NCBI RefSeq assembly: GCF_014204715.1
Contig: NZ_JACHLY010000001.1
Location: 4,300,501-4,364,500 of the forward strand
Direction: 5' to 3'
Source of the DNA: Streptomonospora salina
Lineage (GTDB): Bacteria > Actinomycetota > Actinomycetes > Streptosporangiales > Streptosporangiaceae
Length of the DNA: 64,000 nt
Under the pieces are notes generated by a model. The model searched no databases and was not told the DNA's origin. It saw nothing but the letters and a program-made list of their open reading frames with translations. The translations under genes were made by a program, and so were the position numbers. Every line of letters begins with the position of its first letter. The first letter of the stretch is position 1. Below, piece after piece: positions 3,409-54,528 of the stretch.

Positions 3409-4695
3409 ATGCCGACCGCACCCGCCTCGACTCCGTCCGCACATTCCCTTCGCGCTGCGATGGTCGACAGAACCGTCGCCAAGCGCGCCATGCTGGACAT
3501 GCCGCCCTTGTCGGCGCCGGAGGAGCAGGCGCTGAGGACGGTTCCCCGCGAGCTGTTCCTCCCCGGCCTGGAGCTGACCGACGTCTATGCCGAACAGGCG
3601 GTGGTGACCAAGCGCGACCAGGAACGCGGCGTCGCGCTGAGTTCCGTGTCGGCGCCCGCGATCATCGCGACCATGCTGCACCGCGCCGACATCCGGCCCG
3701 GCCACCGCATCCTGGAGATCGGATCAGGCGGCTACAACGCCGCACTGATCCGTGAACTGACCGGAGCGGGCGGCGACGTCACCTCGATCGACATCGATCC
3801 CGAGGTCGTCGACCGCGCCGGACGCTTCCTGGACCACGCCGGATACCGCGACGTCCATGTGGCCGCAGCCGACGGGGAGCACGGCTTCGCCCGACGCGCT
3901 CCCTACGACCGCATCCTCGTCACCGCCGGAGCCTGGGACGTTCCGCCCGCGTGGCGCGACCAGCTCGCCCCCGGCGGGCGCATGGTCGTCCCCATGCGCA
4001 TCCGCGGCCTGACACGCTGCCTGACCTTGGAACGCGCCGCCGAGGGGCACTGGAGCTGCGTGGCCGTCGACATGTGCGGGTTCGTGCGCATGCAGGGCGC
4101 CGGCGAGCACTGGGAGCCCATGCCCTACCTCAACGACGAGCCCGACCGCCGGGTCGGCCTGCGGCTGGAGGACGGCCCCTCCGCGGACGTCGCCGCACTG
4201 CGCCGCGCGCTCGCCCGGGAACCCGACACCGTGTGGTCGGGCGTACTCGTCCAAGCCGAGGAACCCACCGACGACCAAGACCTCTGGATCGCCACGGCCG
4301 CCGACGAATGGGCCCTGCTGACCGCCGACCGCGAAGCGATCCGTTCCGGCCTGGTCACACCCACCTGGGCGCTGGGCACGCCCACGCTGCTGAACGCCGA
4401 CGGCACCGGATTCGCCTACCGCACCCTGCGGCGCCACCCCACACGCGAGGGCCGATGGGAATTCGGCGCAATCGGACACGGGCCGCAGGCCCGTGCAACC
4501 GCAGAGCGGCTGTGCGACCTGATGGCCGCCTGGGACCGCGACCTGCGCGGGCGACCGGGCCCGGAGATCACCCTGCACCCCGTATCCAAACCCGATCACC
4601 GCCTGCCCGCCGGGCGCGTGATCGACAAGCGGTCCACCCGAATGGTCCTGAACTGGACCGCAACCACTGAAGAAGAGAAGAAGGAGGAGCTGTGA
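3409..4695 (+). CDS. FxLD-system methyltransferase (protein isoaspartyl O-methyltransferase-like)
   Basis: A 428-residue SAM-dependent methyltransferase of the protein-L-isoaspartate O-methyltransferase fold. Motif I is ILEIGSGGYNAALIREL (residues 101-117), the acidic motif II is TSIDIDPEV (125-133), and SSVSAPAII (78-86) matches the PIMT-type substrate loop. A C-terminal extension of about 200 residues, beyond the normal PIMT length, is typical of the version found with FxLD lanthipeptides. It overlaps the precursor gene (GTGA). Related enzymes methylate an aspartate side chain in a lanthipeptide, leading to a succinimide or isoaspartate; the same role is likely here, and the core contains three Asp residues after the first ring region. 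Confidence 0.9.
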   Translation: MPTAPASTPSAHSLRAAMVDRTVAKRAMLDMPPLSAPEEQALRTVPRELFLPGLELTDVYAEQAVVTKRDQERGVALSSVSAPAIIATMLHRADIRPGHRILEIGSGGYNAALIRELTGAGGDVTSIDIDPEVVDRAGRFLDHAGYRDVHVAAADGEHGFARRAPYDRILVTAGAWDVPPAWRDQLAPGGRMVVPMRIRGLTRCLTLERAAEGHWSCVAVDMCGFVRMQGAGEHWEPMPYLNDEPDRRVGLRLEDGPSADVAALRRALAREPDTVWSGVLVQAEEPTDDQDLWIATAADEWALLTADREAIRSGLVTPTWALGTPTLLNADGTGFAYRTLRRHPTREGRWEFGAIGHGPQARATAERLCDLMAAWDRDLRGRPGPEITLHPVSKPDHRLPAGRVIDKRSTRMVLNWTATTEEEKKEEL

Positions 4696-4895
4696 AGCTC
4701 GACGTCATCGAAACCCCGAACGGATTCACCCCGGTCTCCGAGATCGGACCGGACACCCAAGGCGACCCCTTCGACCTGGACCTGCAGGTACACGTGCCCG
4801 CGCAGTCGGGAGCGCTGTGGTCCATGACCGACGACGGCTGCGACCCCACGTGTGAAAGCGCCTGCTCGCCCAGCTGCACCGACAACGGCAACTGA
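4692..4895 (+). CDS. FxLD-family lanthipeptide precursor peptide
   Basis: This 67-residue peptide carries the FDLD motif at residues 27-30 (DPFDLDLQVH), which defines the FxLD leader. The C-terminal part is rich in Ser, Thr and Cys, with four Cys at residues 50, 54, 58 and 62 in an even i+4 spacing, and Ser/Thr at 44, 46, 53, 56, 59, 61 and 63 that could be dehydrated. Asp residues at 47, 48 and 51 are possible methyltransferase targets. The GTG start follows AAGGAGGAG closely and overlaps the methyltransferase stop. A leader cut somewhere after residue 38 is plausible; no protease gene is in the cluster. Confidence 0.92.
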   Translation: MKLDVIETPNGFTPVSEIGPDTQGDPFDLDLQVHVPAQSGALWSMTDDGCDPTCESACSPSCTDNGN

Positions 4896-4922
4896 GTCCG
4901 GCACGGCCACTCCGCCACGTCT

Positions 4923-4950
4923 GCCCCTGGGCGCCGCCGCGCCCAGGGGC
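4923..4950 (+). terminator. Perfect 12-bp hairpin between precursor and lanB
   Basis: GCCCCTGGGCGC (4923-4934) pairs perfectly with 4939-4950 around a four-base loop. It lies 27 bases after the precursor stop and 21 bases before the lanB start and has no T tract. It looks like an attenuator that lets the precursor be made in excess of the enzymes. Confidence 0.75.
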
Positions 4951-4971
4951 ACCGTCCCGAAGGAGCCCTGC

Positions 4972-7920
4972 GTGTACGCACCCCCGGACCCGCCGGCCAT
5001 GACGCTGCGGGCCACCGCACTGTCCGCCCCCGCCGCAACACCCTGGCCGGATCCAGCGAGCGCGACCTCCCACGAGCTGCGGGCATGGATCCACCGCTGC
5101 TGGACACAGGATCCCGGCTTCGCCGAAGCACTCGATGCGGCCAGCCCGTCACTGGCCCGACAGCTCGATACGCTCACCCGCCCCGGTCCCGCACCACGAC
5201 ACGCGAAGGTGCGGCGCGCCGCAATCGCGCTCATGCGGTACCTGCTGCGCACGCAGAACCGCCCCACCCCCTACGGGCTGTTCGCCGGAGTCGCGCCCGT
5301 GGCCCACGGAACGGAAACCCGCGCCCACTGGGGGAGCAACCACCAGGCGGTGGCACGGCCGGACGCCGCATGGCTCTCGGCCTACGCCCGCCACCACGCC
5401 GATCCGAACCCCCGCGACGTGCTCGTCGCAGCCCACACCGCACACGTGCGGGGAGCACGGCTCGTCCGCCCCTGGGTCCCGAGCCAGGACGACCCCCGCG
5501 GAGCCGCGGCCGTATCGGTACGCTTCACCCCCGTCGTCGCCCGAGCGATGCACGCCGCACGCACCCCGGCATCCCCGGCCGCCGTCGTCGACGCGCTGGC
5601 CGCGGAGTTTCCCCAGGCCGAGGCCAGCGCCCTTGCGGCTGTCGTCGACCAACTCCGCACCCACGGCATCCTCATCAGCACACGGCGCCCCGCCATCTGG
5701 GTCACCGACCCCCTGGAGGCCGCGGCCGAGAACGCCGCCCCCGAATCGCCCCTGCCCGAGGCGTGCGCCGTCCTGGCCGAACACAACTACCTCCGGTCCG
5801 ACCGGCGCGCACAGCTGCGCGCCGCCGCGACGAGCCGCCTCGGTCGCGCCCTTCCCGGCCACACGGCGCGGTTGGCGGTGGACACACGACTGGACGCCGA
5901 CGTCACGCTCCCGCCGCATGTGGCCCGCGAGGCGGGACGGGCCGCACAGGTCCTGGCGTCGCTCGCTCCGCACGCCACCGGCACCGCGGCCTGGACCGAC
6001 TACCACGTCCGCTGCCTGGACACCTACGGGCCCGGCGCCACCGTGGACCTCCTCGAACTCGTCGGCCCCCCCGGCCTCGGATTGCCCACCGGCTACCGCG
6101 GCTCCCGCCTGCCCGAGTCCGCCCGAACCGATGGTGAACGCGAAGGCGCCTTGGTCACCGCGGCGTACACCGCCGCCCTCGACGGCAGCTACGAGATCGC
6201 CGTAGACGAGATACCGGCCTTGGCGGAGTCGGCCGCCCATCCGCCTCCCCACGTGGAAGTCCGTGCGCAACTGCACGCCGCATCTCCGAGCGCGGTCGAC
6301 GCGGGCGACTTCGACCTCCGGATCACCGGGGTCTCACGCAGCATCGGCACCCTGACCGGCCGCTTCGCCCACCTGGACGGCATGGCCACCCCGGAGGTCT
6401 ACCGCGACCTCCCCACCGTCACGCACGGGGCCCTCCCGGTCCAGATACTGGCGCCGCCCATGGCCGACACCGCGGCCAATGTCGCCCGGGCCCCCGTCCT
6501 CGCGCCGCACACGCTGGTCATCGATGAACACCCACCTCCCGCAGGCGCCGGCGGCACCGAGACCATCGTCCCCGACGACGTGGCGGTGCACATCGAGGCC
6601 GATCATCTGCGACTGCTCCACCGCCCCTCGGGCCGGGTCATCGAGCCCTACCTGGCCTCGGCGCTCGAACCCCACCGCTACACCCACCCCCTGGCCCGGT
6701 TCTGCTACGAACTCCCGCGCGCCCGCATGCCCGCCCATCTCGGATTCACCTGGCCCACCATCGCCAGTGCGTTCCGGTTCCTGCCGCGGCTGCGTTCCGG
6801 CCGCAGCATCCTCGCCCCGGCGCAGTGGCGCATCAGCGCAAGCGGCCACGACGGGGCCGGACCGCGCAGTGACCTGCCCGACCGGGTCGTGCTCCTCGAC
6901 GGAGAGCGCTACCTGAGCCTGGACCTGACCCGAGCCGCCCACCGGTACCTCCTCGACGACCACCTCGCCCACAACACGACCGCCATAGTCACCGAGGCCC
7001 CGCCCGCGCACGCATTCGGATGGTGCGGCGACCGCGCCCACGAGATCGTCATTCCGCTGCACTCCACCGTCCCGCCCACCCCCGAACCGCCGCGGCTACC
7101 GAAACCGGCAGACGCCGGTGCGCCGGTCCCTCAACCGCCGGGAGGCGCCGATTGGGTCGCGGCCCACCTCTACACCGACGCCGACCTGTTCGTCCCGCTG
7201 CTGACGGAGCACCTGCCGCAGCTGTGGACCCTGCTGGGAGAGGTCCCGGACTGGTGGTTCGTCCGCTACCGCGACGCCGACGGTCCGCACCTGCGTCTGC
7301 GCGTACGAACCGGCGGCCGAGCCGACGCCGTGACCACGGCGTTCGGTACGTGGGCGCGGTCCCTCCACGCGCACGGGGCGCTGCACGAGATGACCCTGTC
7401 CACCTACCGTCCCGAAACCGGACGCTACGGCTGTGGCCCCGCGATGCACGCCGCCGAGGACGTCTTCGTAGCCGACTCGGCAGCCGCCGTAGCCCAGCTC
7501 GAACTCGCGGCAGGCGACCAGAGCCGCACACACGCGTTCGCTGCCGCCTCACTGATCGACCTGGCGATCGAAGCGGTGGGCACGACATGGCTGCTCGACC
7601 ACCTGCCGCGCTCCGGCGAACCCGTGGACCGCAGCGCCCACGCCCTGGCCGACCGCACTCTGACCGACCTCGACCGGCACCCGGACCAGGTACCCGGAGA
7701 GCTGGCGAAAGCGTGGAAGGAGCGCACCGACGCCTTCACGTCCTACCTCGGCGATCACTCCGCACCGGTCCAGGCGGCCCGGCGGGTGCTCCCATCGCTG
7801 CTGCATATGCACCACAACCGGATCGCGGGCCCCGACCGGCCCGACGAACGGCGCCTTCTCGCATTGACGAGAGCGGTCGCCCTGAGCCGTCACGCTCGCC
7901 AACCCCGCGATCGGCCATGA
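4972..7920 (+). CDS. Lantibiotic dehydratase LanB, full-length with C-terminal SpaB-type domain
   Basis: A 982-residue class I lanthipeptide dehydratase. The N-terminal glutamylation part includes RYLLRTQNRPTPYGLFAGV, the conserved LanB start. The elimination domain is the last 270 residues or so, starting near DWVAAHLYTDADLFVPLL and containing WWFVRYRDADGPHLRLRVR. The enzyme should glutamylate Ser/Thr in the precursor with Glu-tRNA and eliminate to give Dha/Dhb. GTG 4972 has AAGGAG six bases upstream; ATG 4999 is an alternative. It overlaps lanC by ATGA, so both are coupled. Confidence 0.92.
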   Translation: MYAPPDPPAMTLRATALSAPAATPWPDPASATSHELRAWIHRCWTQDPGFAEALDAASPSLARQLDTLTRPGPAPRHAKVRRAAIALMRYLLRTQNRPTPYGLFAGVAPVAHGTETRAHWGSNHQAVARPDAAWLSAYARHHADPNPRDVLVAAHTAHVRGARLVRPWVPSQDDPRGAAAVSVRFTPVVARAMHAARTPASPAAVVDALAAEFPQAEASALAAVVDQLRTHGILISTRRPAIWVTDPLEAAAENAAPESPLPEACAVLAEHNYLRSDRRAQLRAAATSRLGRALPGHTARLAVDTRLDADVTLPPHVAREAGRAAQVLASLAPHATGTAAWTDYHVRCLDTYGPGATVDLLELVGPPGLGLPTGYRGSRLPESARTDGEREGALVTAAYTAALDGSYEIAVDEIPALAESAAHPPPHVEVRAQLHAASPSAVDAGDFDLRITGVSRSIGTLTGRFAHLDGMATPEVYRDLPTVTHGALPVQILAPPMADTAANVARAPVLAPHTLVIDEHPPPAGAGGTETIVPDDVAVHIEADHLRLLHRPSGRVIEPYLASALEPHRYTHPLARFCYELPRARMPAHLGFTWPTIASAFRFLPRLRSGRSILAPAQWRISASGHDGAGPRSDLPDRVVLLDGERYLSLDLTRAAHRYLLDDHLAHNTTAIVTEAPPAHAFGWCGDRAHEIVIPLHSTVPPTPEPPRLPKPADAGAPVPQPPGGADWVAAHLYTDADLFVPLLTEHLPQLWTLLGEVPDWWFVRYRDADGPHLRLRVRTGGRADAVTTAFGTWARSLHAHGALHEMTLSTYRPETGRYGCGPAMHAAEDVFVADSAAAVAQLELAAGDQSRTHAFAAASLIDLAIEAVGTTWLLDHLPRSGEPVDRSAHALADRTLTDLDRHPDQVPGELAKAWKERTDAFTSYLGDHSAPVQAARRVLPSLLHMHHNRIAGPDRPDERRLLALTRAVALSRHARQPRDRP

Positions 7921-9089
7921 CCACGTCCAGCGACACAGGCTTCCCGGAGCCGCCGGCCGAGCCCGGTGCCATCGACGCCCGACCGCTGCTGTCGCTGGGC
8001 TTCGGGGCCGCAGGGATCGCACTGACCCACCTCGCTCGGGGCTCGGGCCGCTCGCATGCCTGGATCATGGCGGCCACCGCCGACGGAGTCGACACCGGAG
8101 GCCGCGCGACGCTCTTCCACGGGCTGCCCGCCCTCGCCTTCGTGCTGTCCCACGCCCAGCCGGAGGACTATCCGCACGCCCGGCGCACACTGCTCGGGCA
8201 CCTGCAGAGCCTGGCGCAGCGGCGCACCGAGGCCGCTCACGCCCGCATCGATCAAGCGAAGCCCGCCTCATTCGCCGAGTACGACCTCATCAGCGGGCTG
8301 ACCGGGATCGGCGTGGCGCTGCTGCGTACCGACCCGAACGGCGCGGCCCTCGAATCGGTGCTGCGCTACCTCGTCCGCCTCACCGAACCCCTCCGGACAC
8401 CGCAGGGGCGCCTGCCGGGCTGGTGGGCCCGTCACGACCCGTGGGGCAGCGACAGCCGCGACTTCCCCCACGGGCACGCCAACCTCGGCATGGCCCACGG
8501 TGCCGCCGGACCGCTGGCGCTGCTGTCGCTGGCCTACCGGTCCGGGAAGGAGGTCCCCCGACACGTGGAAGCGATCCGGCGCATCTGCGCGACCTTGGAC
8601 TCCTGGCGCCGCGACGCGCCGGGCGGACCGTGGTGGCCGGGCTGGGTCGCCCACGGGGACCACGCTCCCGGCCTTCGCCGCCCCGGCCCTCCGTCCTGGT
8701 GCTACGGAACGCCGGGTCTCGCCCGCGCCCAGCAACTCGCCGGGCTGGCCCTCGCCGACCGCGCCCGATGCCGCATCGCCGAGGAAGCACTCGCACGGTG
8801 CCTCGACGATCCGGTGCAGCAGGCCCTCCTGCAGGAGAACGGACTGTGCCACGGTCGCGCCGGCATTCTGCACGTCCTGCGCCGCATGGCCGACGATCAG
8901 CGCCCGGACGGTGGACGCTGGGACCTCGGCGCCCATGTCGGTCCGGTCCGCAGTTCGCTGCTGCGCTCCGTCCACGGCGACACCGGCAACGGCTTCCTCG
9001 AAGGACGAGCCGGAGCCGTTCTCGCCCTATCGGCTCCCGACAGCCTTGAAGCCCCCGACTGGGACAGCTGCCTGCTCCTGTCGTGCTGA
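7917..9089 (+). CDS. Lanthionine synthetase C-like cyclase
   Basis: A 390-residue LanC. The zinc ligands are visible: Cys262 in SWCYGTPG, and Cys311-His312 in GLCHGRAG. The catalytic His194 lies in NLGMAHGAAG. It should join Cys thiols of the precursor to the Dha/Dhb made by LanB, giving lanthionine rings. It is the last gene of the cluster; no transporter or leader protease follows, so export must rely on genes elsewhere. Confidence 0.92.
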   Translation: MTTSSDTGFPEPPAEPGAIDARPLLSLGFGAAGIALTHLARGSGRSHAWIMAATADGVDTGGRATLFHGLPALAFVLSHAQPEDYPHARRTLLGHLQSLAQRRTEAAHARIDQAKPASFAEYDLISGLTGIGVALLRTDPNGAALESVLRYLVRLTEPLRTPQGRLPGWWARHDPWGSDSRDFPHGHANLGMAHGAAGPLALLSLAYRSGKEVPRHVEAIRRICATLDSWRRDAPGGPWWPGWVAHGDHAPGLRRPGPPSWCYGTPGLARAQQLAGLALADRARCRIAEEALARCLDDPVQQALLQENGLCHGRAGILHVLRRMADDQRPDGGRWDLGAHVGPVRSSLLRSVHGDTGNGFLEGRAGAVLALSAPDSLEAPDWDSCLLLSC

Positions 9090-17517: not shown

Positions 17518-19781
17518 TCAGCGTTTCCAGAACGCCCACCACCGCGGTCGCCGGTGAACGCGGTCGCGGTTTCTCCGCGCGACGGCGAGGCCGTGGCGGT
17601 CATCAGTGGCCTGAAATCCCCGAATGGCGCGGTCGAACGCTTCGATGGCCTCCTCGAAGCGTCGCACCTTTAGGAGGGCGCTGCCGAGGTTGTTCCAGGC
17701 GTCGGCTTCGCGGTGGGTGTCGCCGGTTTCTTGGTCGAGGGTGCGGGCGTGGGTGTGGGCGTCGATGGCTTCCTCGAAGCGGCGCACGTCGGTAGCACAA
17801 CGCCGAGGTTGTTCCAGGCTGTGGCTTCGCGGTGGGTGTCGCCGGTGTGCTGGAAGGTGTTGCGGGCGTGGGTGTACGCGTTGATGGCGGCGTCGAAGCG
17901 GCGCACCTGGCGGAGGGCGAGGCCGAGGTTGTTCCAGGCGCCGGCTTCGCTGTGGGGGTCGCCGATGTCTTGGTAGTAGGAGAGGGCGTGGGTGTGGGCG
18001 TCGATGGCCTCGTCGAAGCGGCGGACTTCTTGGAGGGCGGTGCCGAGGTTGTTCCAGGCGCTGGCTTCGCGGTGGGTGTCGCCGACCTCTTGGTGGAGGG
18101 TGCGTGCGTGGGTGTGGGCGTTGATGGCGTCGTCGAAGCGGCGCACCTGGCGGAGGGCGGTGCCGAGGTTGGTCCAGGCCATGGCTTGGCCGTGGGTGTC
18201 GCCGATGTCTTGGTGGAGGGTGCGTGCGTGGGTGTGGGCGTCGATGGCCTCGTCGAAGCGGCGCGTCTCCCGTAGCGCGAGGCCGAGACTGTTCCATGCG
18301 GCCGCTTCGTTTTGGGTGTCGCCGGAGGCGTGTGCAACCTCTTGGGCGATGCGGCTGATCTGCTCCCATTCGGTGAACCGGCGCCGATGCTCCAGGTATC
18401 TGGCCAGGTTGAGGGGCAGGTGGACGGCTGCGCGGGTGTGGCCGGTGGCCTGGGCGGTGCGTACCGCCTCGATCAGGGTGGCGTGTTCCTCGTCCAGCCA
18501 GGCCATGGCCTCCTGCCGGTCGTCGAACGCGTCGGGTACCCCCTGGCCCGGCAGCGCCCGCAGGTGATCGTCGGCCGCATCGACCGTGTCGGTGTAGGCA
18601 TCCAGCAGCCGGGTCAGGGCCGGCTCGCGGTCGGCAGGCGGGTCGGGATGGTTCCGGGCGTAGTCGGCGGCCAGATCGTGCATGGCCCACCGGTCGGGCG
18701 CGGGCCGGGTGAGCAGGCGGGCCGTGGCCAGTTCCTCCAGCACCTCTGCGGCCTCCTCGAACTCCAGTCCGGTGAGCACGGCTACGGCCGCGGTGGAGGT
18801 ACTGGGACCCGGGGCCGATCCCAGCAGCAGGAACACCCGCGCCTGGGTGGTCTCCAGGGTGGCGAGGGAGGTGTCGAAGACGGTGCGCACCGCCCGGTCG
18901 CGGTCGCTCAGTTCCCTCAGGAGGGAGGAGGCGGATTCCAGGCGCTGAACCAGCCGGCCGGGGGCCAGATGGGGGCTGCGTTTGAGGTGGGCGGCGGTGA
19001 CCTCCAGCGCCAGCGGCAGGTGTCCGCAGCACCGCGCCAACCGCTCCAGACCCGCCTCATCATGAGAGCGGGGGTCGTCGGGGGTATGGGTGGAGAGTTC
19101 GGCCGCCAGCAGGGCGAGGGCGTCGGGTTCGGCGAGGACGTCGAGGTCGAGGTGGTGGGCGCCGGCGAGTTCGGCCAGCCCGGTGCGGGCGGTGGCCACC
19201 AGCCGGTGGCCACCGGGCCCGGGCAGCAGGGGGCGGACCTGGGCGGGGTCGCGGGCGTTGTCGGCCACCACCAGCACGGGCCGTGCGTGGGGGTCGGTGC
19301 GGGAGAGCTCCTGCAGGGCGGAGCGGTAGGCGGCGGCGCGTTCCTGGAGCCCGAGGGGGATGTCGTCGGGGCGGGTGCCCAGGGCCCGCAGCAGGGTGTC
19401 CAGGGCCGCTTCGGCGGTGACGGGTGGGGTGTGGGGGGTGTAGCCGTGCAGGTCGATCCACAGGTGGGCGCAGAACCAGTCGTGCTCGGCGGCGGTGGCG
19501 GCGGCGTGGGCGGCCAGGGCGGTTTTGCCGATGCCGCCCATTCCGGCCAGGGCCGAGACCACCACCGCTTGCGAGTCCCGTCGGGGGTCGAGCCGGTGGA
19601 CGAGGGCGGTGAGTTCGCGGGTGCGGCCGGTGAAGCGGGGCGGCGGGGGCGGTGCGGCGAACAGGGCGGTCGGGGAGGTCGGACCCTGATGGTGGTGGGT
19701 GTGTTGGGTTCCGATGACGTCGCGGCCGGCGCTGACGCCGGTCTGCGCGAGGCGGTCACCGTCGGGGGTGGGGGGTGTCAT
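17518..19781 (-). CDS. STAND NTPase (NB-ARC) with TPR repeats, frameshifted near the 3' end
   Basis: The ATPase core has Walker A GMGGIGKT (residues 80-87), Walker B region VLVVADNARD, and an MHD-type motif in WAMHDLAADYAR, followed by 40-residue TPR repeats. Such proteins are signal-sensing oligomerising ATPases, as in AfsR-like regulators and bacterial immune proteins. The frame open from 19781 runs to a stop at 17670. Within the repeat at about 17702-17820 one base is missing (119 instead of 120 bases), and the homologous TPR sequence continues in another frame to 17518, ending RRPRWWAFWKR. Either the gene is damaged or the base is a sequencing error. It overlaps the small membrane gene by ATGA. 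Confidence 0.85.
17665..18310 (-). repeat. Tandem 120-bp repeats encoding 40-residue TPR units
   Basis: Units recur every 120 bases; for instance TGGTGGAGGGTGCGTGCGTG is found at 18091 and again at 18211. The core protein unit contains AWNNLGTAL, VRRFDEAIDAHTHA and GDTHREA. The unit near 17702 is 119 bases long, which causes the frameshift. Confidence 0.9.
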
Positions 19782-48604: not shown

Positions 48605-50275
48605 TCAGAACCCGACGACGCGGCCGGGGCGGTGCTCCTGGCGTGCGCGGGTACGCCACGCGGCGACCGCCATCGCGGCCGTCAGAACGCCGTCGATGCG
48701 CTTGTTCGCGCCGCCGCGCCTCGGCTTGACGGGCTTGATCAGCTCCGGGTCGTCGGTGCCGCGTTTGACCTCCACGGCGTCGAAGCAGTGCCGCGAGACC
48801 GGATTGGCGTGGTGGTCGAACGCCCGGGTCTTGAGCACCGCCATGAGTTCGCGCATGCCGGGGGAGAGCCCCGTGAAGGTCTGCGGCACCGGAACCAGCT
48901 CGGTGGAAGGGCCGAGACGGCGGCCCAACTCCTGAACGGCCGGTTCGCCGCTCCAGGGGTCGTAGTCGATCTCGGCGAGCGTGACCCGCTGGGCATCGGC
49001 CGCGATGTCGTCATAGACCCGCTGGTAGTCGATGACATCGCCTTCGGTGATGGTCAGCCAGCCGTCGCGCACCCACGACTCGGCCGCCCCGCCCGTACTC
49101 GTCACCAGAGCGGGAAGCGCAGCTTCGGGCAGCCAGTAGCGCCACAGGACTTCGGCGCCCCCGTCCGGCCGGGGCACGATCACACACCACGCGGTCAGGT
49201 CGAGCTTGGCCGAAAGGTCGAGCCCGCCGTAGGCCAGAGGCCGGCCGACCGGAAGACGCCACTCTGGGCTCGGCCACGGCTCCCCGGCCGCGCAGTCGTA
49301 GAGGTCCATCGGCACCCAACGGGAGACTTGCGAGACCCACTGGTTCAGCCGGAACTGTCTGAAGACGTTCTCGCGTGCGGGGTCCTCGCGGGCTTCGGAC
49401 GCCTCCTCGCGAAGGGTCTCGATGCTGAGGAAGTCACCGAGAGCCGGGTTGGCGAGCTTCCAGACCTCTTCGTCCCACGGGTCGGCATCGGGTGGTGCCT
49501 CGGCGAGGTAGGCGAACCGGTGCGGCGCGCGGTTGGGGTTCTCCAGGACGCGCTTGGCTTCCAGGTACTCCTGATAGCAGAAGCTGTCGCGGTCGTTTCC
49601 GGCGGTGGTGATGGCGACCATCAGCGGTTGCGTGCGGGTTCCGGCGCCGGTGCGCAGCGCGTTCCACAGGTCGCCGTTGGGGGCGGTCAGCAGTTCGTCA
49701 TAGACCGCGCCGTGCGGGTTGTGACCGAGGTTGCCCCCGGCGTCGGCCGGGATCGCCTCGTAGTACGAGCCGGTCTGCTCGTCCACGATGCGCTTGACGT
49801 GGTCCTTGACGACGAGGCGGCGCGAGAGCACCGGCGAGAGCTTGACCATGCGCGCGGCGACGTCGAAGACCTTGCGCGCCTGGTCCTTGTCCACGGCCGC
49901 GCCGTAGATCTCGGCGCCTTCCTCCCCGTCGGCGCAGAGCAGGTAGAGGCAGATTCCGGCCGCGATCTCGGACTTGCCGCACTTGCGCGCCATGGAAATG
50001 TAGGCGAGCCGGTAGCGGCGCACGTACTGCTCAGCCTGTTCGTCCCAGCGGACCGTGCCGAACAGCGGCCGAATGATGTCGTGCTCCTGCCACGGAGCGA
50101 GCCGGAACGCCTGGCGAGCCCAACGCGCTTTCGTGTGCACGAGCAGTTCAGAGAAGAACGCGACGACGTGATCGGCGCGCTGTTGGCAGTAGTGCTCCCC
50201 GCGCTTGGTGCAGGTGTCGCCGTCGAACGTCCGACCGCACACGGGAAACCGGGAGCGGGAGGCGCGCGCGGGCAT
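48605..50275 (-). CDS. terL: Terminase large subunit
   Basis: A 556-residue packaging motor. The N-terminus has a Cys-His zinc element (FPVCGRTFDGDTCTKRGEHY). The ATPase has Walker A SMARKCGKSE (residues 94-103) and Walker B GAVYDEL (189-195). The nuclease part has DLSAKLDLTAW and EIDYDPW with acidic residues. Two plus-strand genes separate it from the small subunit. Confidence 0.93.
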   Translation of the reverse strand: MPARASRSRFPVCGRTFDGDTCTKRGEHYCQQRADHVVAFFSELLVHTKARWARQAFRLAPWQEHDIIRPLFGTVRWDEQAEQYVRRYRLAYISMARKCGKSEIAAGICLYLLCADGEEGAEIYGAAVDKDQARKVFDVAARMVKLSPVLSRRLVVKDHVKRIVDEQTGSYYEAIPADAGGNLGHNPHGAVYDELLTAPNGDLWNALRTGAGTRTQPLMVAITTAGNDRDSFCYQEYLEAKRVLENPNRAPHRFAYLAEAPPDADPWDEEVWKLANPALGDFLSIETLREEASEAREDPARENVFRQFRLNQWVSQVSRWVPMDLYDCAAGEPWPSPEWRLPVGRPLAYGGLDLSAKLDLTAWCVIVPRPDGGAEVLWRYWLPEAALPALVTSTGGAAESWVRDGWLTITEGDVIDYQRVYDDIAADAQRVTLAEIDYDPWSGEPAVQELGRRLGPSTELVPVPQTFTGLSPGMRELMAVLKTRAFDHHANPVSRHCFDAVEVKRGTDDPELIKPVKPRRGGANKRIDGVLTAAMAVAAWRTRARQEHRPGRVVGF

Positions 50276-51481: not shown

Positions 51482-51937
51482 TCATCCCAGTAGCCGCGCC
51501 GCATGGTCCTCGGCGACCCGCTCAGTCGTGAGCTGGACGCGCGCGGCCGGGGTCAGGCCGAACTCGCGGGCGAAGGCGAGCATGGTCCGCGCGGCCTCGC
51601 GCTGGATGCGGACGGCCGGGTTCGTGCGTAGCGCACCGTCGCGGTCCTTGATCAGCGGTCCGGCCTTCTGCACCATCGCAGAAGCCTGAGCGTGCAGTCG
51701 CACGGCTTCGACGTAGGCGTGAAGCTGGTGGGCGTCGGTGCGGTGGATGAGCCCCATCGCGTCCAGTTCGGCGACGACGTGTTCCCAGATCGCCCGGCCG
51801 GCCTCGTCCAGTTCGGCTGGGACCTCTGGAAGGCCGGGGGAAGGCTGAGGCTCGTCCTCGTTGATGCGGTAGGGGCGCTCTCCGTGCAGGACCCGGAGAT
51901 TGGTCGGTTTGGGCGGCGGTCCGCGACGGCCCATCAT
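51482..51937 (-). CDS. terS: Terminase small subunit (P27 family)
   Basis: A 151-residue protein starting MMGRRGPPPKPTNLRVLHGE, the conserved start of P27-type small terminases, with helical parts EAGRAIWEHVVAELDAMGLI and IQREAARTMLAFAREFGLTP. It recognises the packaging site. It follows the dioxygenase gene by 14 bases. Confidence 0.9.
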   Translation of the reverse strand: MMGRRGPPPKPTNLRVLHGERPYRINEDEPQPSPGLPEVPAELDEAGRAIWEHVVAELDAMGLIHRTDAHQLHAYVEAVRLHAQASAMVQKAGPLIKDRDGALRTNPAVRIQREAARTMLAFAREFGLTPAARVQLTTERVAEDHAARLLG

Positions 51938-51951
51938 GCGCCCCCTCTGCG

Positions 51952-52860
51952 TTAGCCCTTCTGCGCGGTGCGTGCGTTGCGGCGCTCAGCGGCGGCGATC
52001 GCCTTGTTCTGCTCTTCCTCGGCGGAGCCGCAGGCGTTCATCCGTTCGCGGTAGTAGGCCACGACCGAGATCCGCTCGGCGCCGCAGCATCTGAGCATCT
52101 GATCGTTCTTCGCGCCGTGCGGGCATGTCATCGCCGTGTTGGCGTGCCACTGGTGGGCGTCCATGAGGAGTAGATCGCCCTCGTCCATGTCGGCGGCGAC
52201 GCGGTACTCGGGGAACACCAGACGGCCGCCGGAGTAGTCGCCTCGGCGTAGTACCGCGAGGGTGGAGAACCCTTCGGCCAGATCCCCGGCGTCCTTGTGT
52301 CCGCCGGTCGGGTAGGAGTTGTTGACGGTGACCGTGGAGAACACGGTCCCCGGCACGATCCAGTCGGGATGGGTCGCCGCGACCCGTTCGGCCTGGGCCT
52401 CGTAGCGGTCGGGTACGTGCTCGGCCAGGGCCGTACTCATCGACTCCAGCAGTGGCGCGAGCTGGCGGAAGCGCGGAAGGTGCTCCCCGGTCCAGGCGGT
52501 CAGCCGACAGTAGCGCTGCTGCCCGGAGGGGTCCATGGACCCGACGATCGCCGAGGACACGTTGCGCGCTCGGGTCCGCGTCTGGCCGGGGATCTTCACG
52601 CGCCGCGTGCCGGAGGCGAGTCCGCGGTTGTCGGTGCGCTGCGAGCGCAGACCGTGCAGCACGTCGTAGATGTCGGGATGCTTCTCCAGCACCGGCCGCA
52701 GGTGGCCGGGCAGGTATATGCACAGCGGCCGTCCATCAGGCATCAGCACCCGTGCGGGTTGGGTCAGCAGAAGCCCGTAGGACTCGTCAGTAGGCAACCG
52801 CCCCTCGTGTGCCTGAACGGTGGTGGGATGCGCGCGGTTGCGTAGGCGAAGTTCGATCAT
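51952..52860 (-). CDS. TET/JBP-like Fe(II)/2-oxoglutarate dioxygenase
   Basis: A 302-residue protein with the double-stranded beta-helix motif set: His188-x-Asp190 in TGGHKDAGD, the distal His239 in DAHQWHANT and a 2-oxoglutarate-binding Arg263 in AERISVVAYY. The segment YSGGRLVFPEYRVAADMDEG is typical of the TET/JBP family, which oxidises the methyl group of thymine or 5-methylcytosine in DNA. It ends a four-gene overlapped group with ParB-like, P-loop kinase and a 143-residue protein, next to the terminase. DNA-base modification is the leading idea; a nucleotide or protein target is not ruled out. Confidence 0.82.
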   Translation of the reverse strand: MIELRLRNRAHPTTVQAHEGRLPTDESYGLLLTQPARVLMPDGRPLCIYLPGHLRPVLEKHPDIYDVLHGLRSQRTDNRGLASGTRRVKIPGQTRTRARNVSSAIVGSMDPSGQQRYCRLTAWTGEHLPRFRQLAPLLESMSTALAEHVPDRYEAQAERVAATHPDWIVPGTVFSTVTVNNSYPTGGHKDAGDLAEGFSTLAVLRRGDYSGGRLVFPEYRVAADMDEGDLLLMDAHQWHANTAMTCPHGAKNDQMLRCCGAERISVVAYYRERMNACGSAEEEQNKAIAAAERRNARTAQKG

Positions 52861-53288
52861 GCCGCGCCCTTCTCCACATCGGATGTGACTTCCAGCCGCT
52901 TGCAGACCAGTTCGACGGCGACGGCCGGTAGCTCGTCGGCGCGCACGAACGTCGAGACCGAGTCGCGGGCGATGAACCACGGGAAGGCAACGTCATCGAC
53001 CATCACCTGCGCTTCGTCGCCGGCGCGGACGACGCGGATCACATCCGGGAGCCGACCGGCCCCGTCGGCGGGGTCGCGCCACTCCAGCCGCGTCGCGCCG
53101 TCGTGTCCGTGGACGGCAAACGCCGTGTCGATGTCGGGCCAGAAGACGGTCGAGGCATACTCGCTCATCCAGCGCACCGCAACGGTTCCATCCGAGAACC
53201 GCACGCCTTCGGCGACGGCGCCGGTGCCGCTGACGCCGGTCTCATCGGCCTCGCGCACGAGCAGGAAGCGGCGGCTTCCTCGGGTCAT
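52857..53288 (-). CDS. Unknown protein in the modification cassette
   Basis: A 143-residue protein. Its first half (RFLLVREADETGVSGTGAVA, EGVRFSDGTVAVRWMSEYAS) is a small beta-barrel-like domain seen in actinophage and actinobacterial proteins of unknown role; the second half has VIRVVRAGDEAQVMVDDVAF. It overlaps its neighbours by four bases on each side (ATGA), so it is made together with the kinase and the dioxygenase. Confidence 0.72.
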   Translation of the reverse strand: MTRGSRRFLLVREADETGVSGTGAVAEGVRFSDGTVAVRWMSEYASTVFWPDIDTAFAVHGHDGATRLEWRDPADGAGRLPDVIRVVRAGDEAQVMVDDVAFPWFIARDSVSTFVRADELPAVAVELVCKRLEVTSDVEKGAA

Positions 53289-53836
53289 GTCAGAGCCTCC
53301 AGTTCGGGGACGCGGGCGGCCAGACGCGCACCGATCTCTTGCGGCGCGTCGGTGCAGGCGTCGGTGATGACCGGCCATCCGCGCGCCTCGGCGAGCGCGG
53401 CCAGGCGCCGCGCCTTCGTCGTACGGCCGCGAACCCACGACGGTTCATGGGCGGAGCCGCGGGCTCGGCGTCGTTGAGCAGCGACCTCGGCGGGCGGTCG
53501 GCACCACACGAGGGTCGGGGCGAACCCGACCGCCTCGGCGGCGCCGAGGAACCCGGCCGTGGCGAGCCGATCGCCCTCGGCCAGAACCAGCGGGACGGGC
53601 GAGCTGGGCAGCCAGGAGCGCGCGGACGGTTCCACCGAGAGTGCGAGCGCATCGGTTCCAGGGAAGCGCGCTCGACGCCGGCCGAGCTCGACCGCGACCA
53701 CTTCGCGTGAGCGAACGAGCAGATCGTGAGCGAACGGGGCGCGGCGGCCGATGCGATCGCAGCGCGCGGTGAGCGCGGCCATCGTGGTCGACTTGCCTGC
53801 TCCCGGTTCACCGATCAGGTAGACGAGCCGGGTCAC
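53285..53836 (-). CDS. P-loop kinase of the modification cassette
   Basis: A 183-residue nucleoside-kinase-like P-loop protein with Walker A GEPGAGKST (residues 9-17) and a late RGRTTKARRLAALAEARGW segment. Phage P-loop kinases of this size include the 5-hydroxymethyluracil DNA kinases that act after a hydroxylase. It starts at GTG 53836 and overlaps ParB by four bases. Its partner dioxygenase suggests kinase action on an oxidised base in DNA, but the target is inferred. Confidence 0.8.
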   Translation of the reverse strand: MTRLVYLIGEPGAGKSTTMAALTARCDRIGRRAPFAHDLLVRSREVVAVELGRRRARFPGTDALALSVEPSARSWLPSSPVPLVLAEGDRLATAGFLGAAEAVGFAPTLVWCRPPAEVAAQRRRARGSAHEPSWVRGRTTKARRLAALAEARGWPVITDACTDAPQEIGARLAARVPELEALT

Positions 53837-54528
53837 GCCGCGTCTCGCAGATGCAGATGCGCGCGCATCGCCTCGGGCTCGGCGGCGCGCAGAGCGGCGA
53901 GCACGATCTCTCCCGAGGACGCCTCGGCGTCGGCGGCTTCGCGCAGTTCGCTGATGCGCTCGACCGCTGCGGCGTGCTCATCCAGGGGCAGCACCACGAC
54001 GAGATCGCGCAGTCCCGACGCCGAGCCGGTGTTCGCGCCGAGGTTGGCGGTGCGCTCGTGCTCCTCCTCCTCGCTCTCGGCGTAGTCGGGATGGATCGGC
54101 GCGGGCTCGGAGGTCGGCACTTCACCGACGCGCACGGCCAGATCTTCCAGGTCGTCTACCGAGTAGGCGGTTCCGGCCAGTGCCGAGGCGTCGGCGCCCA
54201 CGTCATCGAGGAGCGCGAGCAGAGCCTTCTCGTCGTAGGTGGCCAGATCGTTGGTCTTGTTGTCGGCGAGCAGGATCTTGCGTGCGCGGTCGTCGTCCAC
54301 GTCGATCCACAGGACGGGCACCTTCTTCTCGCCCTGGGTCTTCGCCGCTTTCCAGCGGTGGTTGCCCGCGAGGATGCGGCCGGTGGACTTCTGTGCGATC
54401 ACCGCGCCGTAGAACCCGTTGTGCTCGATCGACTCGGCGATCGCCCCGGTGTCGCCGCGACGCGGGTTGTCGGGGTGCGGTTCGAGCTTGCCGATCGGCA
54501 CGAGTTCGTACTTCTGGTCCGCGATCAT
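53833..54528 (-). CDS. ParB-like nuclease-domain protein
   Basis: A 231-residue protein with the ParB N-terminal fold: LEPHPDNPR (residues 15-23), IAESIEHNGFYGAVIAQ and GRILAGNHRWKAA (50-62), the latter two being the ParB boxes. ParB-fold phage proteins bind nucleotides and often lie with DNA-modification enzymes. The C-terminal half is acidic and unlike chromosome ParB. It is the first gene of the cassette. Confidence 0.85.
   Translation of the reverse strand: MIADQKYELVPIGKLEPHPDNPRRGDTGAIAESIEHNGFYGAVIAQKSTGRILAGNHRWKAAKTQGEKKVPVLWIDVDDDRARKILLADNKTNDLATYDEKALLALLDDVGADASALAGTAYSVDDLEDLAVRVGEVPTSEPAPIHPDYAESEEEEHERTANLGANTGSASGLRDLVVVLPLDEHAAAVERISELREAADAEASSGEIVLAALRAAEPEAMRAHLHLRDAA

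Follow-up and report, generated by a model that had tools for sequence, protein, structure and literature searches.

Why would a temperate phage keep a TET/JBP-family dioxygenase and a P-loop kinase in one gene cluster next to its terminase genes? The question arises from a 64,000-nucleotide stretch of Streptomonospora salina DNA, referred to here as the window (NZ_JACHLY010000001.1, positions 4,300,501–4,364,500 of the forward strand; all coordinates below use window numbering). Four consecutive prophage genes in it encode a ParB-like protein, the kinase, a 143-residue protein and the dioxygenase. We propose that they probably make up a cassette by which a temperate actinophage would modify bases of its DNA after replication, converting thymine to 5-hydroxymethyluracil (5hmU) and then to the phosphate of that base. 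Phage hypermodification started by a TET enzyme is already known as a prediction: in 2013, Iyer et al. reportedly proposed in Nucleic Acids Research (NAR) that hydroxymethyl pyrimidines generated by TET/JBP enzymes are starting points for further modification. Apparently new here are a kinase-only form, free of amino acid:DNA transferase (ADDT), and, as a comparative result, the exchange of the kinase for a glycosyltransferase.

Enzymes of the cassette and their relatives

Profile comparisons showed that the dioxygenase belongs to the TET/JBP family. It scores 75.6 bits against the Pfam Tet_JBP model (cut-off 34.9), and a profile of the TET alignment, run against PDB sequences up to an E value of 1, returned eight matches, all of them TET-family proteins; TET2 was the best (7.6e-7), and Naegleria Tet-like, CcTet and CMD1 were also matched. 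The initial annotation had made the same family call and had named placement among small-molecule or protein hydroxylases as the outcome that would count against it; at the sequence level, the TET-only PDB matches give no such placement. His188, Asp190, His239 and Arg263 stand where that annotation had put them and are invariant across a 20-sequence alignment that includes the window's protein, with identity to it falling as low as 20%. An AlphaFold2 model made from a 10-sequence alignment has a predicted local distance difference test (pLDDT) score of 37, and the family placement is thus by sequence only.

The Walker A motif of the kinase, a PF18751 protein, is likewise present as annotated, its GxxGxGK positions being invariant in an 18-sequence alignment that includes the window's protein. 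The AlphaFold2 model of the kinase has a pLDDT of 96.5, and a Foldseek search with it retrieved various small-molecule, nucleoside and nucleotide kinases at a template modelling (TM) score of about 0.5 and no specific relative; because many kinases match at this level, the fold search leaves the substrate undecided. Compared with a relative at locus L027 (loci carry L numbers, the window's being L001), the ratio of non-synonymous to synonymous substitution rates (dN/dS) is 0.22 for TET, 0.33 for the kinase, 0.47 for ParB and 0.21 for the large terminase subunit TerL. Judged against this relative, both TET and the kinase are under purifying selection.

Of the two remaining proteins, the ParB-like one, already counted as a cassette member in the initial annotation, proved to be a near-constant companion of TET, with ParB lying within 6.5 kb of it in 66 of 69 TET clusters (defined below). 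The 143-residue protein had been put forward as a possible new component, which the comparison did not bear out. It has no Pfam match up to an E value of 1, and its N-terminal half corresponds to phrog_7499, a small domain widespread in phages, with matches in 145 phage records, 128 of them from Streptomyces phages. It is not present in L026–L028, the nearest kinase-type relatives, 5 of 73 TET clusters, among them that of the window, contain portions of it, and a viral-contig scan with it gave no match. We conclude that it is probably a passenger and not a conserved component.

A first search of viral contigs returned 11 TET relatives, and a diverse profile at least 561, of which 80 were kept; the loci counted here are a mixture of TET-seeded, kinase-seeded and hand-picked phage loci. 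TET is present in seven of nine kinase-seeded viral contigs, and none was found in L031 and L032. A first scan of GTDB genome contigs gave no TET relative, and a profile scan of GTDB genomes found three bacterial loci, in Actinomadura rayongensis (69%), Haloechinothrix alba (53%) and Streptomyces africanus (52%). Among 297 genomes of the host family, Tet_JBP matched in two, the window's own and one in the L035 cluster. Records of isolated phages match the window's TET in 13 cases and a more distant, Stinger-type TET in 89.

Several isolated phages resemble the window in having ParB, a TET-like protein, a PF18751 kinase and terminase: the Bclasvirinae mycobacteriophages Stinger, Zemanar and Reprobate, Gordonia phage LittleMunchkin, and Microbacterium phages Terij and Kozie. 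Their order, at the left genome end, is ParB, TET-like protein, ADDT where present, PF18751 kinase and terminase, with the Kozie record starting at the TET-like gene. Because gene order recurs in other viruses, the cluster is not a chance arrangement. These phages differ in that TET precedes the kinase, whereas the window's TET follows it, and their TET proteins, 20–24% identical to the window's, are annotated as oxidoreductase, queuine tRNA-ribosyltransferase or hypothetical protein. By profile and alignment, the gene 2 products of L015, L023 and L024 and further mycobacteriophage proteins labelled queuine tRNA-ribosyltransferase or oxidoreductase are TET-like dioxygenases, and these labels are probably wrong. 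The Zemanar protein, at 26.1 bits, falls short of the Tet_JBP cut-off, and one phage record already names the Stinger-type gene thymidine hydroxylase.

Exchange of the kinase for a glycosyltransferase

Clustering at 90% identity reduced 109 TET loci to 73 clusters. The main set consists of the 69 in which ParB is present or the upstream sequence reaches 3.5 kb or more; four that lack upstream context (L021 and L068 with a kinase, L085 with a glycosyltransferase and L099 with neither) are included only in the count of 73. Within the main set, 44 clusters have a kinase only, 20 have a glycosyltransferase only, 5 have neither and none has both (Fisher p = 4.6e-13, the entries being clusters and not independent events). 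The corresponding numbers are 46, 21, 6 and 0 for all 73 clusters, and 25, 15, 3 and 0 after clustering at 70% identity (p = 5.4e-9).

On a maximum-likelihood TET tree (a quick tree, with support from the Shimodaira–Hasegawa-like approximate likelihood ratio test (SH-aLRT) only, in which long rows may be misplaced), the label changes between kinase and glycosyltransferase 14 times, with at least 10 of these changes forced by starred branches. Shuffling the labels gave a mean of 18.1 changes, 9 and 3 of 500 shuffles being as low, and the labels are only weakly clustered on the tree. The exchange is apparent in the supported four-member clade to which the window belongs: two loci have a kinase (the window and L028), one has a TAGT-family gene (L002) and one a GT-B-like gene (L035; PF13439 below cut-off, E = 0.004), in each case between ParB and TET. 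Elsewhere, in L116 and L118 among others, the glycosyltransferase comes after TET. The exchanged glycosyltransferase family matches PF20691 (TAGT) in 12 of 22 members (best 3.3e-22), and DDD and KEDYD motifs are found in many of them; P0007, the gene typifying this family, has no Pfam match itself, and the family assignment rests on those 12 members. No TAGT stands beside TET at the window's locus (L001, 3.9 kb), where the kinase is found.

Given their mutual exclusion and repeated exchange, the kinase and the TET-associated glycosyltransferase are probably alternative tailoring enzymes for the same substrate, the product of TET. This exchange is the strongest evidence for a kinase acting on the oxidized base, and it is statistical. 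No description of it was found in the literature searched by title or abstract start, although an earlier description may exist. Phage TET and TAGT systems share with the window a ParB–TET core and a second enzyme presumably directed at the hydroxymethyl group, mostly placed between ParB and TET, and differ in that they add a sugar where the window's cassette would add a phosphate. Their likeness to the base J system of kinetoplastids is, we presume, one of analogy.

The five main-set clusters with neither enzyme are L018, L107, L109, L113 and L117. In Pelagibacter phage HTVC112P (L018:6021-8243), genes for ParB, TET and an FkbM methyltransferase are consecutive, possibly representing another tailoring chemistry. 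In L109:1568-5535, the consecutive genes are ParB, TET, a 187-residue protein that may be a further tailoring enzyme, and a large terminase-like protein.

From oxidized base to phosphate: pathway and alternatives

The company kept by the kinase suggests what its product might be used for. Kinase-bearing TET clusters contain ADDT in 38 of 44 cases and a PALP or flavin adenine dinucleotide (FAD) enzyme in 27 of 44, the order in L003-type contigs being ParB, ADDT, PALP, NlpC-like, kinase and TET. The NlpC/CHAP-like protein encoded inside this cassette in several viral contigs (L003:8848-9414 and relatives; CHAP 0.087) may or may not take part. Phages M6, ViI and phiW-14 are thought (PMC6449724) to proceed from 5-hydroxymethyldeoxyuridine (5hmdU) through a 5hmdU DNA kinase to transferases; the M6 relative PAC6 has aGPT-Pplase2, PALP, radical SAM, a PF18748 kinase, HMUDK_hel and thymidylate synthase. 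The window's TET relatives resemble this pathway in combining a P-loop kinase with homologues of ADDT and of the pyridoxal-phosphate (PLP) enzyme, and in both the activating step would be to phosphorylate a hydroxymethyl pyrimidine within DNA. However, the hydroxymethyl group is made in the nucleotide pool, by a dUMP hydroxymethylase of the thymidylate-synthase family, in the M6-type pathway and presumably on DNA, by TET, in the window's cassette; the kinase is PF18748 there and PF18751 here; and neither HMUDK_hel nor ADDT nor the thymidylate-synthase family was found for the window. Montesquieu has ADDT and PLP homologues (detected by family profiles of this analysis, not Pfam), two PF18751 kinases and a thymidylate-synthase-family enzyme, with no TET, and in Sinatra the gene of the PF18751 kinase overlaps that of HMUDK_hel, the helical domain of the 5hmdU kinase.

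ADDT was not found in the window's genome by PF18724, a model that matches 9 of 22 phage and viral records, or by a wider profile that matches both controls, Zemanar and Montesquieu. Nor is there a match to the thymidylate-synthase family PF00303 in the whole genome, so no PF00303 hydroxymethylase competes with TET as the source of the hydroxyl; among 24 related records, PF00303 is present in three (Montesquieu, Sinatra and Cr30). By these profile searches, the window's cassette is a stripped version, without ADDT or thymidylate-synthase family found in the genome.

The pathway that we propose begins with the dioxygenase, which would hydroxylate the 5-methyl group of a pyrimidine in phage double-stranded DNA, most likely turning thymine into 5hmU. 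The PF18751 kinase would then move a phosphate from ATP onto the new hydroxyl, as suggested by its exchange with TAGT and its co-occurrence with ADDT. The ParB and terminase neighbourhood suggests, from gene order, that the modification may be aimed at phage concatemers before packaging. In most kinase-bearing relatives, ADDT, often with PLP or FAD enzymes, would swap the phosphate for an amino acid that is then trimmed. Since no ADDT was found in this prophage's genome, its product may be the charged phosphomethyl base itself, or something made from it by the host or by an enzyme that escaped recognition. Protection from host restriction, as with other hypermodified phage DNAs, would be its likely purpose. 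The initial interpretation is borne out in part: its suggestion that hydroxylase plus kinase would give an activated base is supported by TET membership, the kinase/TAGT exchange and the frequency of ADDT, while the kinase's non-membership of PF18748 and its occurrence without TET in some phages speak against it.

Other observations also weigh against this pathway. Clustering at 50% identity leaves 13 entries and only a weak exclusion (p = 0.007 to 0.13), and in Cr30 TET, ADDT, a TAGT-like gene and thymidylate synthase are found together. The window's kinase has no match up to an E value of 1 to PF18748, the 5hmdU DNA kinase family; the similarity between PF18751 and the PF18748 kinase of PAC6 is distant (hhalign probability 65, E = 5.9e-5, 120 columns), and hmmsearch with PF18751 profiles did not find the PAC6 kinase. 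The helical partner HMUDK_hel (PF18723) was found only in Montesquieu, Sinatra and PAC6; the other 20 records, namely the window's own genome, the 17 TET records tested, Funsized and UncleHowie, gave none. In addition, the TAGT of T2/T6 phages acts on glucosylated hydroxymethylcytosine (PMC13216743), so a TAGT is in itself no argument for thymine.

The choice of base bears on a rather unlikely alternative, that TET oxidizes host-made 5-methylcytosine and the kinase phosphorylates 5-hydroxymethylcytosine (5hmC). TET2, Naegleria Tet-like and CcTet, the nearest solved enzymes, act on 5-methylcytosine, and the host genome outside the window has six matches to the C5-cytosine methyltransferase family PF00145, read as four genes, which are a possible supply of that base. 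Thymine is nevertheless favoured, because PF00145 was found in none of 68 virus records (22 and 46; 67 with TET, and Montesquieu without), many of them fragments. The initial annotation had preferred thymine because it saw no DNA methyltransferase in the window, and PF00145 is indeed without a match there (N4/N6 methyltransferases were not searched for). The absence of PF00303 from the window's genome and the enzyme of Montesquieu lend further weight: in that phage, the homologues of kinase, ADDT and PLP enzyme are accompanied by a thymidylate-synthase-family enzyme whose residue at the ThyA Asn177 column is Asn, a mark of the dUMP type (PMC8670742), although the Sinatra thymidylate-synthase-like protein lacks this Asn. 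The characterised 5-HMUDK, which is of a different Pfam family, phosphorylates 5hmU and not 5hmC in DNA (PMC6457204).

Could the kinase, together with ParB, instead serve a terminase-linked packaging or nucleotide function and be a mere neighbour of TET? In the mycobacteriophages UncleHowie and Funsized, the PF18751 kinase adjoins the terminase with neither TET nor a thymidylate-synthase-family gene present, PHROGs files the kinase family as terminase small subunit (phrog_800), and isolated-phage records contain the kinase 389 times compared with 89 for the Stinger-type TET, an excess from which the kinase may have another, packaging-linked role. Yet the window has a separate small terminase, a bystander would not show the exclusion seen across all 73 TET clusters, and the two kinases of Montesquieu adjoin ADDT and the PLP homologue, with no terminase annotated in the 17 kb shown. 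Funsized itself (L013:1-7280), while free of TET, carries a deazaguanine DNA-modification pathway between ParB and the kinase, so the ParB–kinase–terminase frame can hold different DNA-modification modules; Rosebush, with a deazaguanine set like that of Funsized, contains dPreQ0 in its DNA (PMC6884629). We consider the packaging explanation quite improbable. Similarly, there is little to recommend the view that the cassette has decayed by losing ADDT, with TET and kinase yielding an unfinished intermediate or nothing. The prevalence of ADDT in kinase clusters and the failure to find it in the window's genome fit such a loss, but TET and kinase without ADDT recur in five other clusters (L027, L093, Terij, L033 and L034) and in Stinger, some of these records being fragments, and in the window the frames are open, the catalytic residues are kept and dN/dS is low for both enzymes.

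Building on the proposed conversion of thymine, we tentatively suggest, as a possibility that we hold with much less confidence, that in the window's prophage and in Stinger-, Terij- and L027-type viruses the final base is 5hmU esterified with phosphate or pyrophosphate, made by TET and the PF18751 kinase alone. This would be a negatively charged terminal base, for which TET or ParB might choose the sites without need of the classical helical partner, and phosphate, amino acid or sugar would be interchangeable, like cartridges, at the tailoring position.

Prophage setting and wider meaning

The four genes lie upstream of the small terminase gene in the positions and order first annotated, and their junctions are the expected 4-base overlaps (GTGA, ATGA and ATGA; Table 1). 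The dioxygenase gene is separated from the small terminase gene by a gap of 14 bases, without overlap, and the large terminase gene comes next. Beyond the terminases are genes for portal, coat, tail tube, a 1189-residue protein of tape-measure size and an amidase, and a serine integrase is encoded past the right window edge (L122:8528-10063, about 70.5–72.1 kb). The prophage around the cassette thus looks intact and extends from roughly 33 to 72 kb, with ends estimated from gene content only.

Table 1 Features of the cassette and the adjoining terminase genes (window numbering)
Feature	Position	Strand	Details
ParB-like protein (ParB_N), opening gene of the cassette	53833..54528	-	231 aa, ATG start; PF02195 2.2e-7; phrog_723 1.7e-41
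P-loop kinase PF18751 (Ploopntkinase3)	53285..53836	-	183 aa, GTG start; PF18751 4.8e-34
Kinase Walker A GEPGAGKS, residues 9-16	53789..53812	-	GxxGxGK positions invariant in alignment
143-aa protein, probably a passenger	52857..53288	-	ATG start; N-terminal half phrog_7499
TET/JBP-family 2-oxoglutarate/Fe(II) dioxygenase	51952..52860	-	302 aa, ATG start; Tet_JBP PF12851 3.5e-21
HxD iron-binding motif, His188 and Asp190	52291..52299	-	invariant in alignment
His239, distal iron ligand	52144..52146	-	invariant in alignment
Arg263, putatively 2-oxoglutarate-binding (role from family)	52072..52074	-	invariant in alignment
Terminase small subunit	51482..51937	-	PF05119 4.7e-22
Terminase large subunit	48605..50275	-	PF20441 1.9e-25 and PF03354 3.3e-23

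Two other regions of the window drew attention by eye. At 3460-9089 on the plus strand, a class I lanthipeptide-like cluster, recognised from translation starts only, appears to contain a methyltransferase-like gene, a small Cys-containing peptide (4692-4895), a LanB-like gene (5209-7920) and a further gene extending to 9089. On the minus strand at 17670-19781, outside the prophage, a 703-residue gene product resembles a large signalling or defence-type NTPase.

A phosphomethyl base would be easily missed, as digests treated with phosphatase would show 5hmU in its place. Isolated phages whose virion DNA is open to analysis now include Terij, Kozie, LittleMunchkin, Stinger and Zemanar. Phage records call the kinase family adenylate kinase or terminase; its repeated exchange with a glycosyltransferase ties it to base chemistry, and the cassette offers a testable route by which a TET enzyme would start thymine hypermodification directly on DNA.

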